Below are positions 24,311-30,487 of a stretch of DNA of 39,286 bases, piece after piece (within the stretch, counting starts at the first letter, position 1; each line of letters opens with the position of its first letter). Both the position numbers and the translations under genes were made by a program. The DNA comes from Paracoccaceae bacterium (GTDB lineage: Bacteria; Pseudomonadota; Alphaproteobacteria; Rhodobacterales; Rhodobacteraceae): NCBI GenBank assembly GCA_007126375.1, contig SLBI01000304.1, positions 1 through 39,286 of the forward strand, written 5' to 3'. The notes beneath the pieces were generated by a model that saw only the letters and a program-made list of their open reading frames with translations, had not been told where the DNA came from and made no database searches.

Positions 24311-27001
24311 CTAACCCGGCGGAGTTCTGCCGGGTTGGTCCAACAGTGCCTTCAGTTCGTAGACGAGTGCCAGTGCGTCGCGCGGTGCCAGGTCATCGGG
24401 AAACACCTCCGCCAGACGCGCCTCCACCGCGGAGTGTTTCGGTTCGGAAGTTGCGGCTGGCGCCCGTGCGGCGGCGCTGAACAGGGGCAGGTCGTCCATC
24501 AGCGCCGCGGCACGGCCGCCGCCCTCGCGCTCACCGGATTCCAGCGCTTCCAGCACCACGCGGGCGCGCTCCACGACAGCGGCGGGCAGGCCCGCCAAAC
24601 GGGCCACCTGCACCCCATAGGACCGATCCGCGGCGCCCGGCCGCACCGTGTGCAGAAAAATAACCTCGCCTTGCCATTCCCTCACTGCCAGGGTCGCGTT
24701 CTCGACCCCGGCCAGTCGTGCCGCGAGCCGTGTCAATTCGTGGTAATGCGTGGCAAACAACGCGCGGCAGCGGTTGATATCGTGGAGATGCTCCAGTACG
24801 GCCCATGCGATGGACAGCCCGTCCCAGGTGGCGGTTCCTCGGCCGATCTCGTCGAGGATGACCAATGCGGCGCCGTCGGCCTGATTGATGATTGCGGCCG
24901 TCTCGATCATCTCAACCATGAAGGTCGACCGGCCGCGCGCAAGGTCGTCGGCTGCGCCGACCCGGCTGAAAAGTTGATTCACGAGGCCGATGCGCGCGCA
25001 TTCGGCCGGGACGTGGCTGCCGGCCTGGGCGAGGACGGCGATCAGCGCATTCTGACGCAGGAAGGTCGACTTGCCCCCCATGTTGGGACCGGTGACGAGC
25101 TGGATTGCCGCGCCCTCCGCTGCGGGGGTGAGGCTGCAATCGTTGGCGACAAAGCTGCCGCCCTCCCGCCGCAGCGCCGCCTCAACCACCGGATGGCGGC
25201 CGCCGACAACCTCGAAGGATCGGCTGGTGTCCAGCTCGGGAGCGCACCAATCCCCCTCGGCGGCAAGCTCGGCAAAGCCCGCGGCAAGATCGAGTTCGGC
25301 AAGCGCGCCGGCCAGAACCCCCAACGGCCCGGCGACGGCCAGCACCGCGCTCCGCAGGCCCTGGAAGATGCGTCGCTCCACCTCCAGAGCCAGGCTGCCG
25401 GCGTTCAGGATCCGCGTTTCCATCTCTGCCAGTTCCAGTGTCGTGAACCGCAGCGCGTTCGCGGTGGTCTGACGGTGGCGGAATGTCTCGTTCAGCGGCG
25501 GCGCCAGCATTCTCTCGCCATGCGTCGATGTCGTCTCGACGAAATAGCCCAGCACGTTGTTGTGGCGTATCTTGAGCGATCCGATACCCGTCGCCGCGGC
25601 GTATTCCCCCTGCATCCGCGCGATCACGCTGCGGCCCTCGTCGCGCAGTTGCCGTGCCTCATCGAGTTCGGCATCGTATCCGGTAGCGACGAAGCCGCCG
25701 TCCCGGAGCATCGTCGGCGGTTCTTCCACCAGCGCATGGTTAAGCGAGTGCGCCAGGGCATCTTGTCCGGTCAGGCGCTGTGCCGCCTCGGCCAGCCGTC
25801 CCTCCGGCAGCCCGGCAAGCAATTGCGCGATCCTTGCCGCCTGCCCCACGCCATCGCGCAGGGCTGCGAGGTCGCGCGGTCCACCGCGGTCCAGTGCAAG
25901 GCGTGACAGCGCCCGCTCGATGTCCGGCACCTGCCGCAGCATCGCACGGAGCCCCTCGCGCAGGCCGCTGTCGGCGCGCAGGTAGCTCACCGCTTCCAGC
26001 CGTGCCCGGATCTCGTCGAGGTCGCAGGAAGGCGCCGAAAGCCGTTGCTCGAGCAGGCGTGCCCCGCCGCCGGTCAGCGTCCGGTCGGCCACCGCCAGCA
26101 ATGCCCCCTCCCGCCCGCCCGACAGGGATCGCGTCAGCTCGAGGTTGCGCCGTGTGGCGGCGTCGATCCGCATGGTCTCCCCCGAGTTTTCGCGAAGGGG
26201 GGGGCGCAACAGAGGCAGGCTGCCGCGCTGCGTCAGGTCGAGGTATTCCGCGATGGCTCCAAGAACCGAAAGCTCGGCCCTGCAGAAGGCCCCGAAGCCT
26301 TCCAGGCTGCCCACCCGATATAGGCCACCGAGTCGTGCCTCGGCCGCGCTGCTGTCGAAGGCCGCGCGCGGCCGTTCGGTCAGCACTGCGCCCGCGTCGG
26401 CTGCAACTGCCGCGACACTCTCGGCATGCCCTTCCACGACCAGCAGTTCGCGCGGCGCCAGCCGGGCAAGCTCCGGCCCCAAACGCACACGCGGACAGGG
26501 CATCACCCGGATTTCCCCGGTCGAGATGTCGCACCACGCCAGCGCCGCGTCGTCGCGCAGTTCGCCCCAGGCAGCCAGCCAGTTTGCCCGCCGTGCCTCC
26601 AGCAGGCTTTCCTCGGTCAACGTTCCGGGGGTCACCAGCCGCACCACGGCCCGCGCGACCACCGATTTCGAGCCGCGCTTCCTTGCCTCGGACGGGTCTT
26701 CGATCTGTTCCGCGATGGCGACACGAAATCCCTTGCGGATCAGTGTCAGCAGATAGCTCTCGGCGGCGTGCACCGGCACGCCGCACATGGCGATATCCTG
26801 TCCCTGATGCTTTCCGCGCTTGGTCAGCGCGATATCGAGTGCCGCGGCTGCTGCCACGGCATCCTCGAAGAACAATTCGTAGAAATCGCCCATCCGGTAG
26901 AACAGCAGCGCATCGGGATGCTGTGCCCGTATTCCGAGATACTGCGCCATCATGGGCGTGATGGCGCCGGCGTCCTCCTCGGCCAAGTCTTCCCCCTTCA
27001 C
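24311..27001 (-). CDS. mutS: DNA mismatch repair protein MutS
   Basis: An 896-residue mismatch-recognition ATPase. The mismatch-reading FYEL motif is at residues 40-43 within DALLFYRMGDFYELFF. Connector and lever domains follow (e.g. NNVLGYFVETTSTHGERM), then the ATPase with Walker A GPNMGGKST, SRVGAADDLARGRSTFMVEM, Walker B VILDEIGRGTATWDG, and ATHYHELT. The C-terminal tail is short. The start is uncertain: GTG at 27001 has no ribosome-binding site; TTG at 26986 follows GGGGGAAG well; ATG at 26953 matches the usual MMAQYL beginning. It converges on grpE and follows the three-repeat gene on the same strand after 62 bp. Confidence 0.96.
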   Translation of the reverse strand: MKGEDLAEEDAGAITPMMAQYLGIRAQHPDALLFYRMGDFYELFFEDAVAAAAALDIALTKRGKHQGQDIAMCGVPVHAAESYLLTLIRKGFRVAIAEQIEDPSEARKRGSKSVVARAVVRLVTPGTLTEESLLEARRANWLAAWGELRDDAALAWCDISTGEIRVMPCPRVRLGPELARLAPRELLVVEGHAESVAAVAADAGAVLTERPRAAFDSSAAEARLGGLYRVGSLEGFGAFCRAELSVLGAIAEYLDLTQRGSLPLLRPPLRENSGETMRIDAATRRNLELTRSLSGGREGALLAVADRTLTGGGARLLEQRLSAPSCDLDEIRARLEAVSYLRADSGLREGLRAMLRQVPDIERALSRLALDRGGPRDLAALRDGVGQAARIAQLLAGLPEGRLAEAAQRLTGQDALAHSLNHALVEEPPTMLRDGGFVATGYDAELDEARQLRDEGRSVIARMQGEYAAATGIGSLKIRHNNVLGYFVETTSTHGERMLAPPLNETFRHRQTTANALRFTTLELAEMETRILNAGSLALEVERRIFQGLRSAVLAVAGPLGVLAGALAELDLAAGFAELAAEGDWCAPELDTSRSFEVVGGRHPVVEAALRREGGSFVANDCSLTPAAEGAAIQLVTGPNMGGKSTFLRQNALIAVLAQAGSHVPAECARIGLVNQLFSRVGAADDLARGRSTFMVEMIETAAIINQADGAALVILDEIGRGTATWDGLSIAWAVLEHLHDINRCRALFATHYHELTRLAARLAGVENATLAVREWQGEVIFLHTVRPGAADRSYGVQVARLAGLPAAVVERARVVLEALESGEREGGGRAAALMDDLPLFSAAARAPAATSEPKHSAVEARLAEVFPDDLAPRDALALVYELKALLDQPGRTPPG
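24313..24336. terminator. Hairpin between grpE and mutS ends
   Basis: AACCCGGC (24313-24320) pairs with GCCGGGTT (24329-24336) around an 8-base loop, 14 bp past the grpE stop and inside the last codons of mutS. No T-run follows, so it may slow or protect transcripts rather than act as a classical terminator. Confidence 0.35.
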
Positions 27002-27063
27002 AGGCGCCGGTGCAGCCTAGCCGTCTGTTCCGGCCGGCGGAAGGGGTACTTGCGGAGCTGTTG

Positions 27064-27621
27064 TCAGACCGTTTCGCCTCGAGCGATGCGCAGGAACTCG
27101 CGCAGGCGTATCATCGCCGTCGCGTCGCCACGGCGTGTCCGCAAGGCGCGCACCGACGGATGTATGCCTTCGGACCGTGCCAGCTCCACATAGCGGGCTG
27201 CGCGTGCCGGCGCCGGATCGTGCGGGGCATCGGCCACATGTCGGCCCTTCGGCGCGGACTCAGCCCGGGCCTGACGCAGGAAGGCGCGCATCCGTGCGAC
27301 AGCGGCGGGATCGCGCGATCTGCTGTGCAATGCCGCGATCGCCGGGTGCAGGCCTTCGCGCCGCGCCATCTCCACGTAACGCGGTACGCGGGAAGGCGAC
27401 GACCCGCGCGCTTCGTCGGCAACATGCTTGCCCTCCGGACCGGTCTCCGAACGCGCCTGCGCCACGAAAGCTTGGAGGCGCAGCGCGTCCGGTACCTCCT
27501 CGGGGCGCATTCGCAGCGCCTGGACAGAGCGGTGCAGTCCCTCTCCGCGGGCGATGTCCAGATACCGGGCCGGGCGGCTGGGACTGGGCGTGCGGGACTT
27601 GTCGGCAATATGCCTGGACAC
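27064..27621 (-). CDS. Uncharacterised protein made of three tandem ~62-residue repeats
   Basis: A 185-residue basic protein that I do not recognise. It consists of three consecutive copies of one unit: residues 1-63, 64-125 and 126-185. Each begins with [KR]H[VI]AD, has a variable stretch of about six residues, then [SA]P[SA]RxxRY and the helix-like [VL][ED]xARxEG[LI]H, a spacer with AL, and the second helix-like R[LM]xxF[LV]xxARxE. Nothing in the sequence suggests a signal peptide, membrane segment or cofactor site. Expression is well supported: the GTG start at 27621 follows AAGGAGGAAAGCC with ideal spacing. It lies 79 bp downstream of regA on the same strand, where Rhodobacter species carry hvrA, but it shows none of HvrA's H-NS-like features. 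A nucleic-acid or protein-binding role is a guess from its charge and repeat structure. The copies differ at many positions, so the triplication is old and under selection. Confidence 0.85.
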   Translation of the reverse strand: MSRHIADKSRTPSPSRPARYLDIARGEGLHRSVQALRMRPEEVPDALRLQAFVAQARSETGPEGKHVADEARGSSPSRVPRYVEMARREGLHPAIAALHSRSRDPAAVARMRAFLRQARAESAPKGRHVADAPHDPAPARAARYVELARSEGIHPSVRALRTRRGDATAMIRLREFLRIARGETV

Positions 27622-27700
27622 GGCTTTCCTCCTTGTTTCAGCTGGCCACTGGCCCTCACGCAGATATGGAAGCCAGGACGCCGCGTGTCACCCGCCCCCG

Positions 27701-28255
27701 TCAGCGGGGCGAGCGTTTGGCAAGGATGCGCTGCAGGGTGCGGCGATGCATGCTCAGGCGGCGGGCAGTTTCGCTTACATTGCGGTCGCATTGTTCATAG
27801 ACGCGCTGAATGTGCTCCCATCGCACACGGTCCGCCGACATGGGATTCTCGGGCGGCGGGGGCAGGCTGTCGCCGGTTGCGAGCAACGCATGCGTCACGT
27901 CATTCGCATCCGCGGGTTTGGAAAGATAGTCCACGGCGCCGATCTTCACCGCCGCCACGGCCGTGGCGATGGCGCCATAGCCGGTCAGCACCACCACCCG
28001 GCAATCGGGGCGCCGAGCATGCAGTGCCTCCACCACATCGAGCCCGTTTCCGTCCTCCAGCCTTAGGTCTACAACGGCGTAGGCCGGCGGCCTTGCCACT
28101 ACCGCAGCCTTCCCCGCAGCTACCGAATCGGCCGTCGCCGGCTCGAAACCGCGCTTTTCCATGGCGCGGGCGAGCCGCCTGAGGAACGCCTCGTCGTCGT
28201 CCACGAGGAGCAGCGAGCGGTCGGCACCGATCGCCGCCAGCGGTTCGTCCTCCAT
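27701..28255 (-). CDS. regA: Redox response regulator RegA (PrrA/ActR)
   Basis: A 184-residue response regulator, partner of RegB. The receiver domain has the acidic pocket LLLVDDDEAF, phosphoacceptor D63 in VVDLRLEDGNGLD, T91 in VLTGYGAIATAVAAVKIGA and K113 in LSKPAD. After the proline linker LPPPPENPMSADRVRW comes the Fis-type helix-turn-helix DRNVSETARRLSMHRRTLQRILAKRSPR at the very C-terminus, which is almost invariant in this family. RegA controls photosynthesis, respiration, nitrogen and carbon fixation genes in response to redox state. The ATG at 28255 gives the family's usual 184 residues; the frame is open to 28282. It follows senC by 117 bp. Confidence 0.97.
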   Translation of the reverse strand: MEDEPLAAIGADRSLLLVDDDEAFLRRLARAMEKRGFEPATADSVAAGKAAVVARPPAYAVVDLRLEDGNGLDVVEALHARRPDCRVVVLTGYGAIATAVAAVKIGAVDYLSKPADANDVTHALLATGDSLPPPPENPMSADRVRWEHIQRVYEQCDRNVSETARRLSMHRRTLQRILAKRSPR

Positions 28256-28372
28256 CGGCCTGATTGTCCTTTCGCCATCCATGCGCTGAACCTAGGGCGC
28301 CCGTGACAAAAGGTCAATTTTCATGCGGGTCAGATCGTCGCAGAGATCTGTCGCCGGTGGCAGCGGGGTCCG

Positions 28373-28984
28373 TCAGCTTGCAGCCGCGAAACAGGCGACG
28401 GATTCTGCGATCTCTTCGGGCGATTGGGTCCGTCGGTAGACCTCGACCACTCCGTGTTCCGGAAGTGCCAGATAGCTGAAGGTCGAGTGATCCACGAGGT
28501 AGAATTCATCGTCCCCGTCCTGCTTCTGATAGAAGGTGCGATAGGCTTGGCTGGCCGCGCGCACCTGTTCGGGCGTGCCGGTCAGCCCGATCATGCGTTC
28601 GTGCAGATTGCCGACGAAGCGGGACAGGACTTCGGGCGTATCGCGCTCGGGATCGACGGAGATGAATATCGGCCGGGCGTCCAGTCCGTTCTGGGCGAGG
28701 ATATCGGCCACGACGGCATTGCGCGCTGCGTCCAGCGGGCAAACGTCGGGGCAGAAGGTGTAGCCGAAGTAGATCAGGCTGGGGCGATCGATCACGTCAG
28801 CGTCGGTCACGGGGCGGCCCTCGTGTGTCACGAGGGAGAATTCCCCGCCTATGGCACCGGCAATCGCCGTCTCGCGGCAATGTGCGAAGCGCGCCTCGCC
28901 GCGATCCGACAGGATGAAATAGCCCAGGCCGCCGAGCACTGCCGCGATCAGCACACCCGCCGATACCGCATATTTCCAAGCCAT
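28373..28984 (-). CDS. senC: SCO1/SenC/PrrC copper-binding thioredoxin-fold protein
   Basis: A 203-residue membrane-anchored periplasmic protein. An N-terminal hydrophobic anchor (~6-26) precedes a thioredoxin-like domain with the copper-binding CPDVCP (C78, C82) and the distal histidine H166 in VDHSTFSYL. SCO proteins deliver copper to the CuA or CuB site of cytochrome oxidases. In Rhodobacter, SenC/PrrC links oxidase assembly and redox signalling to RegB/RegA. The ATG at 28984 has GGGAGCGG upstream. It is transcribed with regA and divergently from regB across 99 bp. Confidence 0.96.
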   Translation of the reverse strand: MAWKYAVSAGVLIAAVLGGLGYFILSDRGEARFAHCRETAIAGAIGGEFSLVTHEGRPVTDADVIDRPSLIYFGYTFCPDVCPLDAARNAVVADILAQNGLDARPIFISVDPERDTPEVLSRFVGNLHERMIGLTGTPEQVRAASQAYRTFYQKQDGDDEFYLVDHSTFSYLALPEHGVVEVYRRTQSPEEIAESVACFAAAS

Positions 28985-29083
28985 GGGGCCGCTCCCGCAC
29001 CGCCGCTCGTCGATGGCACCGTTGATCGCCGATGAGGCGCAGCCTAACAATGGCAAACTGCCCGGTGTGACACTTGGACCCGC

Positions 29084-30487
29084 ATGCTTTCACCCAGTTA
29101 CGGCCTGATGCGCAGCCGGACCCGCAGCCAGTGGGTGCGCTTGCGCACGCTCCTGCTGTTGCGCTGGATGGCGGTGTTCGGCCAGTTGGTGGCGATCACC
29201 GTCGCCGACCGGTATTTCGGCATCCGGCTTGACCTCGGCCTCTGCTATCTGGTGGTCGGCGCCGCGGTCATCGCGAACCTCACCGCCATCTGGCTTTCGC
29301 CGGTGAACAAGCGGCTGTCCGAAATCGAGGCGATGCTGACGCTGCTGTTCGATGTCGCGCAGCTTGCACTGCTCCTCTATCTCACTGGCGGGCTGACCAA
29401 TCCCTTCTCGCTGCTGATGCTGGCGCCGGTCACGATCTCGGCGACGGTGCTGCATCTGCGCACGACGCTGTTTCTCGGCAGCATCGCCATCGCGCTGGTG
29501 ACGCTGCTGGCGGTCTTCTACGTGCCGCTGCGCTTCGAATCCGGTGAAGTGCTGATAGTGCCGCCGCTGTTCGAGCTGGGCTACTGGCTGGCCATGGTCA
29601 CCGGCATCGTCTTCATCGGCCTCTATTCCCGCCGGGTGGCCAGCGAGATGCACGCCATGTCGGACGCGCTGCTGGCGACACAGATGGCGCTTGCGCGCGA
29701 GCAGAAGCTGACCGACCTCGGCGGCGTTGTCGCGGCCACTGCACATGAGCTGGGCACGCCGCTTGCCACCATAAAGCTCGCAAGCGCCGAGTTGGCCGAC
29801 GATCTGGCCAGACTGCTGCCCGAGCGTTCCGATCTGGTGGAGGATGCCCAACTGATCCGCGAACAGGCCGACCGATGCCGGGACATCCTTAAGTCGATGG
29901 GCCGGGCCGGAAAGGAGGATCAACACCTCAAGCAGGCCCCCCTCGGTGCGGTATTGCGCGAGGCGGCCGAGCCGCATTCGGCGCGCGGCAAGAAGATCGT
30001 CTTCACCGTCCGCCCCGCCGAGGAAGGCGACACCCGCCCGCCGGCGATCCTGCGCCGGCCCGAGGTGATCCACGGGCTGCGCAACCTGATCCAGAACGCC
30101 GTCGATTTCGCCCGGTCCACCGTGTGGGTTTCGGGAGACTGGAGCAACGACGCGCTGACCGTCCGGATCATCGACGACGGGACGGGTTTTCCGCCGCATC
30201 TGCTGGGCCGTATCGGCGAGCCCTTCATGCGGCCACGCCGCAGCGGCGCCGACCGGGTGGAGCGGCCCGGCTACGAGGGAATGGGACTGGGCCTCTTCAT
30301 TGCCAAGACGCTGCTGGAGCGCTCCGGCGCCACGGTCAACTTCATCAATGCCATGGACGCCAACCGCGATGTCGGCCCCGCAGCCGCCGTACCGCTGGGG
30401 GCCATGGTCGAGGTGGTTTGGCCGCGCGCCCGAATCAGTCCGGACCCGGCGATGCCGTTGGGGCGTAATCGCCCGTTCGCCGTCTGA
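29084..30487 (+). CDS. regB: Redox sensor histidine kinase RegB (PrrB/ActS)
   Basis: A 467-residue membrane sensor kinase. Six hydrophobic segments fill residues ~20-182, with the quinone-binding loop GGLTNPF at 102-108. The phosphoacceptor H221 lies in HELGTPLATI. The redox-active cysteine is at residue 265 in QADRCRDIL, the number known from R. capsulatus, where it forms an intersubunit disulfide or sulfenate. The kinase domain shows HGLRNLIQNAVDFA (N box), DDGTGFP (G1) and GMGLGLFIAKTLLE (G2). It phosphorylates RegA under low-oxygen or reduced conditions. Confidence 0.97.
   Translation: MLSPSYGLMRSRTRSQWVRLRTLLLLRWMAVFGQLVAITVADRYFGIRLDLGLCYLVVGAAVIANLTAIWLSPVNKRLSEIEAMLTLLFDVAQLALLLYLTGGLTNPFSLLMLAPVTISATVLHLRTTLFLGSIAIALVTLLAVFYVPLRFESGEVLIVPPLFELGYWLAMVTGIVFIGLYSRRVASEMHAMSDALLATQMALAREQKLTDLGGVVAATAHELGTPLATIKLASAELADDLARLLPERSDLVEDAQLIREQADRCRDILKSMGRAGKEDQHLKQAPLGAVLREAAEPHSARGKKIVFTVRPAEEGDTRPPAILRRPEVIHGLRNLIQNAVDFARSTVWVSGDWSNDALTVRIIDDGTGFPPHLLGRIGEPFMRPRRSGADRVERPGYEGMGLGLFIAKTLLERSGATVNFINAMDANRDVGPAAAVPLGAMVEVVWPRARISPDPAMPLGRNRPFAV

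Follow-up and report, generated by a model that had tools for sequence, protein, structure and literature searches.

The gene directly after regA that we describe here very probably encodes an internally triplicated, relocated member of an undescribed family of small Rhodobacteraceae proteins, a reading built on homology and on gene position. It lies in a window of 39,286 nucleotides (the whole stretch of DNA that was analysed), which spans positions 1 to 39,286 of contig SLBI01000304.1 in a Paracoccaceae bacterium assembly (GCA_007126375.1). Each of its three units corresponds to what elsewhere is a complete protein of 55–68 aa, nearly always encoded once per genome. The comparison thereby exposes a small-protein family that is present in about a third of the sampled Rhodobacteraceae genera and that gave no match above threshold in Pfam or NCBIfam. 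As to function, we tentatively favour a small basic helical protein whose arginine-bearing helices would contact nucleic acid; identity and mechanism taken together we consider about evenly balanced.

A three-unit gene between regA and mutS

The open reading frame occupies the minus strand, for which the preliminary description had given no orientation. Its neighbours, identified by profile, confirm the regA-locus setting in which that description had placed it:

24311..27001, minus strand: mutS (MutS domains I–V), downstream of the three-unit gene, 62 nt gap
27064..27621, minus strand: coding sequence of the three-unit protein, 185 aa, GTG start
27433..27621, minus strand: unit 1, residues 1–63
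27247..27432, minus strand: unit 2, residues 64–125
27067..27246, minus strand: unit 3, residues 126–185, the most conserved unit
27628..27634, minus strand: ribosome-binding site AAGGAGG, read from the sequence, ending 6 nt before the start codon
27701..28282, minus strand: regA (ActR/PrrA/RegA response regulator; NF033791, E 4.3e-96), upstream, 79 nt gap
28373..29056, minus strand: SCO1/SenC gene (PF02630), upstream of regA
29084..30487, plus strand: regB sensor kinase (NF045988, E 2.6e-220), divergent

The three repeats of about 62 residues align pairwise without gaps over 58–61 residues, with local BLOSUM62 scores of 145, 145 and 159, i.e. 21.5–23.7 SD above 2000 shuffles of one partner, and share [KR]H[VI]AD at residues 3, 65 and 127. 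The earlier claim of a three-repeat protein is therefore well founded, as is that of its basic character (calculated pI 11.5). The same can be said of translation, which had been proposed from the near-perfect ribosome-binding site. Support for it extends beyond that site because, among four triplicated homologues, dN/dS stays under 1 whichever unit or pair is compared (unit 1, 0.20–0.70 and the highest unit in four of six pairs; unit 2, 0.19–0.61; unit 3, 0.10–0.38), values to be read with caution in the several pairs whose synonymous sites approach saturation. GGAGG or a close form also stands ahead of most of the single-unit homologues inspected for it. By codon position, the GC content of the gene (0.77/0.59/0.76) is like that of regA (0.73/0.50/0.77) at the first and third positions and higher at the second, and Rfam gave no structured-RNA match in the window.

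Each unit is itself a doublet of the motif R-x3-[FY]-[LA]-x-[IL]-[EA]-R, a feature absent from the preliminary description, so that the window protein carries six copies:

27547..27576, minus strand: helix motif copy 1, residues 16–25
27451..27480, minus strand: helix motif copy 2, residues 48–57
27361..27390, minus strand: helix motif copy 3, residues 78–87
27265..27294, minus strand: helix motif copy 4, residues 110–119
27175..27204, minus strand: helix motif copy 5, residues 140–149
27079..27108, minus strand: helix motif copy 6, residues 172–181

The copies begin at residues 16, 48, 78, 110, 140 and 172, i.e. at spacings of 32/30/32/30/32, and H-[VI]-A-D precedes each doublet. Not one of 20,000 shuffles held two or more copies of the search pattern, which had been composed after inspecting the window's own copies.

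Single-unit relatives in the Rhodobacteraceae

A whole-protein search of 61 genomes recovered close triplicated homologues from three further genomes in the window's genus and, as three weaker matches, single-unit genes of 61–64 aa with their own ribosome-binding sites; the window protein alone matched single-unit genes in genomes G005 (7.6e-9), G021 (1.4e-4) and G015 (1.9e-4). Profiles of one unit, a search that the preliminary description had suggested, widened this view considerably. A first profile matched 141 of 394 Rhodobacteraceae genomes at E 0.01, and a second, at E 0.001 and with up to 16 candidates scored per genome, found the unit, elsewhere a protein of 55–68 aa, in at least 143 of the 394, equivalent to at least 142 of 393 genera. 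Profile A2, to which the window protein's three units contribute three of the 32 rows, recognises all of them with E values from 1e-20 to 4.6e-19. Three unit matches occurred only in G000 (the window's genome) and G004, the two genomes of the window's genus in this sample; G197 and G413 had two each, on different contigs and with the second weak. In a class-wide sample of 240 genomes the window's own was the one that matched, with none among the best 26 or fewer candidates of each of the other 239, at least two of which belong to the Rhodobacteraceae. A larger profile likewise found nothing in 30 Rhodobacteraceae genomes without an earlier match (0/30, in a run that held no positive control). 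The family thus looks patchy rather than universal in the Rhodobacteraceae.

The doublet recurs in the single-unit proteins. Among 69 of them, the first motif was found in 63, the second in 59 and both in 54, compared with 2 of 3450 shuffles, and in 53 of the 54 the copies lie 31–36 residues apart; the window protein agrees, each of its units holding two copies of R-x3-[FY]-x2-[IL]-x-R about 31–36 residues apart. Column make-up is alike in both copies (R, [LVT], [KR] or other, x, [FY], [LA], x, [IL], [EA], R), with R at position 7 commoner in the second copy (53/59) than in the first (24/63). Judged by 50 shuffles each, 48 of the 69 proteins were self-similar at p 0.05. These proteins are mutually related, so that the doublet counts do not amount to 69 independent events.

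Searches of known families bear out the earlier suggestion that the repeat is undescribed. The window protein had no above-threshold match in Pfam, NCBIfam, PHROGs or PDB, nor had its single-unit relatives in Pfam, NCBIfam or PDB, and the profile match to a known domain family that would have spoken against novelty was thus looked for with no result above threshold. Sub-threshold matches of the window protein (Lipase_GDSL_2, E 0.03; DUF6626, 0.058; and weaker ones) and lone ones of the relatives (NF003262, 0.052; DUF4244, 0.16; Filaggrin, 0.033) were rejected because none of these families turned up repeatedly when 32 members were scanned. Literature searches covering titles and the beginnings of abstracts, with subscription papers mostly outside their coverage, brought up no description that we recognised as this repeat family. 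A mobile origin was also considered and rejected: plasmids and phages held no match for the window protein, nor plasmids for one single-unit protein.

The usual genomic home of the family was read from 69 single-unit loci, which comprise the 28 best-scoring ones of the first profile, the G005 gene and 40 chosen from the second-profile ranking. The last were taken on contigs long enough for the purpose, so that the sample is non-random; together the loci cover 68 of the 141 second-profile genomes other than G000 and G004, and the flanks of the first 29 reach up to 1.5 kb. By profile, QueG (TIGR00276), EamA (PF00892) or an ilvE-type aminotransferase stood near 63 of the 69, and none of the three near the other six. 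Within about 4 kb, the 40-locus set had QueG in 32 cases, a branched-chain aminotransferase in 26, MarR in 24 and EamA in 15. The marR gene and the response regulator beside ilvE are presumably petP/petR, for which the literature search gave no confirmation. Among the 69 loci, the immediate co-oriented upstream neighbour, at a distance of up to 260 nt, was QueG in 24 and EamA in 15, with neither in the other 30. Placement of the small gene directly after queG or eamA on the same strand (39/69) raises the possibility of co-transcription with tRNA queuosine synthesis. In G005 (contig C188; loci L006 and L100) the single unit is found away from the usual place, beside open reading frames that we take to be hslU, STAS and anti-sigma-type genes. 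The window gene stands between regA and mutS and so lacks the queG/eamA/ilvE neighbourhood, a trait that is typical (63/69) and non-defining.

History of the triplication and possible function

Six genomes of the window's genus bear on how the three-unit gene arose. Three units in one gene occur in G000, G001, G002 and G004; G003 and G005 have one unit each, elsewhere in the genome. In all four carriers the triplicated gene follows regA directly, with SCO and regB beyond. The next gene is mutS in G000, G001 and G004; the G002 contig runs on for 1.26 kb without mutS, the start of which is found there on another contig, without regA. The single unit of G003 is in the usual place, convergent to ilvE and beside marR, and the mutS gene of this genome lies away from regA, next to what is presumably a malic-enzyme-like gene. 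The ilvE–marR pair has been kept in G000 and G004 with no unit adjoining; an ilvE gene was not found in G001. We ran 72 unit queries against the queG locus of each of the six genomes and against the ilvE loci of G000, G002, G003, G004 and G005. Outside G003's ilvE locus they gave three short matches at E ≤1e-3, all of them in G000 (one at the queG locus, two at the ilvE locus; best 5.8e-4), which we attribute to chance since they were absent from the results of the whole-genome profile search. That profile search found no separate single-unit gene in the four triplicated genomes, a result convincing only for G004, which is 99% complete; the other genomes of the genus are 66–87% complete, which leaves the absence of a second copy insecure there.

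A tree of 24 units separates the 12 triplicated units from 12 single-unit rows (99/97) and arranges them by position with three changes, the minimum. Unit 1 forms a supported group (92/87) and units 2 and 3 form none; the G003 row sits on a long branch, and its placement is uncertain. The simplest reading would be one triplication before the four genomes split: in their ancestor, the unit would have been tandemly triplicated inside one gene, which now stands after regA.

The three copies have not fared alike. Unit 3 is 73–82% identical between the four genomes versus 29–52% for unit 1 and, with its lower dN/dS, is the more constrained; a conserved function would therefore sit mainly in unit 3, with units 1 and 2 perhaps giving added avidity or representing decaying copies. 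Taken to its end, this would make the triplication neutral, with only unit 3 at work and units 1 and 2 drifting relics, an account that is compatible with the other readings and that we hold to be possible, if on the doubtful side. The contrast in identity speaks for it, as do G001 and G004, in each of which a looser pattern finds only three of the six motif copies. However, the window protein has kept all six copies intact, and G002 also shows six by the looser pattern; none of the four genomes has a broken frame; and dN/dS in units 1 and 2 does not reach 1 in any pair, although synonymous sites approach saturation in several. The family offers a precise motif, a typical neighbourhood and, in one unit versus three, a natural experiment, which makes it straightforward to test at the bench.

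Structure prediction of one unit and of the whole protein, which had likewise been suggested, delivered in part. AlphaFold placed three helices in a unit modelled from a six-unit alignment (pLDDT 69, pTM 0.30); both this model and that of the whole protein, made from two sequences (pLDDT 43), are weak, and Foldseek found no match in PDB for the weak unit model. We therefore predict a fold of three short helices per unit with low confidence. The single-unit proteins have a median pI of 11.5 and a net charge of −1 to +12 (median +7). Proteins of this kind may contact nucleic acid through their arginine-bearing helices, as we tentatively propose; the target would more likely be RNA or ribosomes than a specific promoter. 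It counts against such a binder that no known nucleic-acid-binding family was matched in Pfam, NCBIfam, PHROGs or PDB. Furthermore, the common glutamate of the motif and three single-unit proteins with a pI of 9 or below argue against a simple charge-driven binder.

The same features could belong to a protein–protein adaptor, in which a paired-helix hairpin would dock on a protein partner and part of the basicity would stem from high-GC codon use. Arginine mixed at fixed spacing with conserved Phe/Tyr, Leu/Ile and often Glu would suit helix packing, and one member has a pI of only 6.4. Yet the pI exceeds 9 in 66 of 69 members, and neighbouring genes vary and include no known partner, so that we regard an adaptor as rather unlikely. 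A membrane-binding amphipathic helix is not supported: the motif windows have hydrophobic moments of 0.39 and 0.46 against 0.39 and 0.41 in shuffled windows, i.e. amphipathicity no higher for helix 1 and barely higher for helix 3.

The regA neighbourhood and known systems

The preliminary description saw in the gene a possible new accessory of the RegB/RegA regulon that had taken the slot of hvrA. Transcriptional coupling of HvrA to RegA has been described (PMC5359404), and in the case at hand co-transcription with regA is plausible because consensus scans of 26900–28450, weak tests by nature, found nothing promoter-like and, on the strand of the gene, nothing terminator-like. An accessory that replaced hvrA after regA in this lineage and serves the redox regulon would also explain why the triplicated gene lies directly after regA in four of four carriers. 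This adjacency, which holds even in G002 without mutS following, fits a link to regA better than relocation needs.

The wider family tells against such a role. MutS, SCO or RegB was near the single-unit gene in none of the 69 loci, and a RegA-like response regulator was near two (L141 and L151) at a looser cut-off; in the 40-locus set, one response regulator matched RegA at 26% identity. Among 42 genomes in which both regA and the small gene could be placed, the two were on different contigs in 27 and on one contig in 15, and they lay within 10 kb of each other in just one, the window's own, followed by distances of 13.5 and 51 kb. In seven of the 14 other one-contig genomes, regA and the small gene are 106–119 kb apart, a hint of a conserved chromosomal region. 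G003 and G005, moreover, retain one unit elsewhere. Nor does linkage to regA extend across genera, since the four genomes in which it was seen all belong to the window's genus. The scatter with no link to regA that had been named as speaking against a regA role is thus what the family displays, and it is not what the four triplicated genomes display. A regulon accessory is therefore improbable, and as a general role for the family it finds no support. The lineage-specific link remains, and a role may have been acquired beside regA in this one lineage. Under the relocation that we prefer, the position beside regA would probably be incidental to function, even if the two genes may be transcribed together. 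As a separate observation, the closeness of regA to mutS is unusual, mutS being within 1.5 kb in 0 of 29 other regA loci.

As for hvrA itself, 80 of 110 genomes with regA encode an H-NS domain somewhere and 15 have one no more than 3 kb from regA; the H-NS gene lies directly after regA in both loci that were read closely (G029 and G133). In a RegA–SCO–RegB tree of 30 loci, the window's genome falls into a group of 11 whose members all have the small gene and eight of which carry an H-NS gene beside regA. That regA is often followed by an H-NS gene thus holds for the surrounding clade, and the slot probably held hvrA in an ancestor. Replacement of hvrA is favoured by this clade (8/11) and undercut by the rarity of the arrangement overall (15/110). 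As to whether carriers lack hvrA, which had been asked, the window's genome has an H-NS gene on another contig, a candidate hvrA orthologue, and this also weighs against the regulon reading. The small gene is present in 14 of the 15 genomes with H-NS beside regA versus 28 of 95 others (Fisher p 3e-6), a figure that would favour a connection to the regulon; however, we do not take it as functional evidence because both traits follow clades on the RegA–SCO–RegB tree. In genome G131, open frames of 506 and 343 aa (contigs C534 and C722) have three Histone_HNS matches each, which suggests H-NS proteins with tandem DNA-binding domains.

A still bolder variant, in which a doublet already present in a small family-restricted protein was triplicated into a new multivalent helical array of six motifs that binds nucleic acid and was captured directly after regA, where relatives keep hvrA, so that redox control became linked to this protein in one lineage, strikes us as very improbable. 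The locus illustrates how gene position can mislead, given that a neighbour of regA resembled part of its regulon, yet the relatives that were read live elsewhere.

Three known groups of proteins invite comparison. HvrA/Spb (PF00816) is similarly small and in some relatives its H-NS gene takes the post-regA position, whereas the window protein has repeats and not the H-NS DNA-binding tail. Profile comparison shows no H-NS resemblance either, so that kinship was rejected, with no PF00816 match up to E 10 and an hhalign probability of 0.1% from a shallow set of five sequences. The DUF1127 proteins (PF06568) are likewise tiny, Arg-rich and alphaproteobacterial. Kinship was again rejected (no PF06568 match; hhalign probability 0.1% with seven sequences, also shallow), and their motif is unlike that of the window protein, which makes them a possible functional analogue only. 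CcaF1 of Rhodobacter sphaeroides is, we assume, a DUF1127 protein. It is described as a small RNA-binding protein. The third group is that of the single-unit Rhodobacteraceae proteins of 55–68 aa, which share homology over the whole unit, the H-x-x-D start, the doublet motif and a similar ribosome-binding site with the window protein, and differ from it in having one unit and, usually, a queG/eamA/ilvE neighbourhood away from regA.
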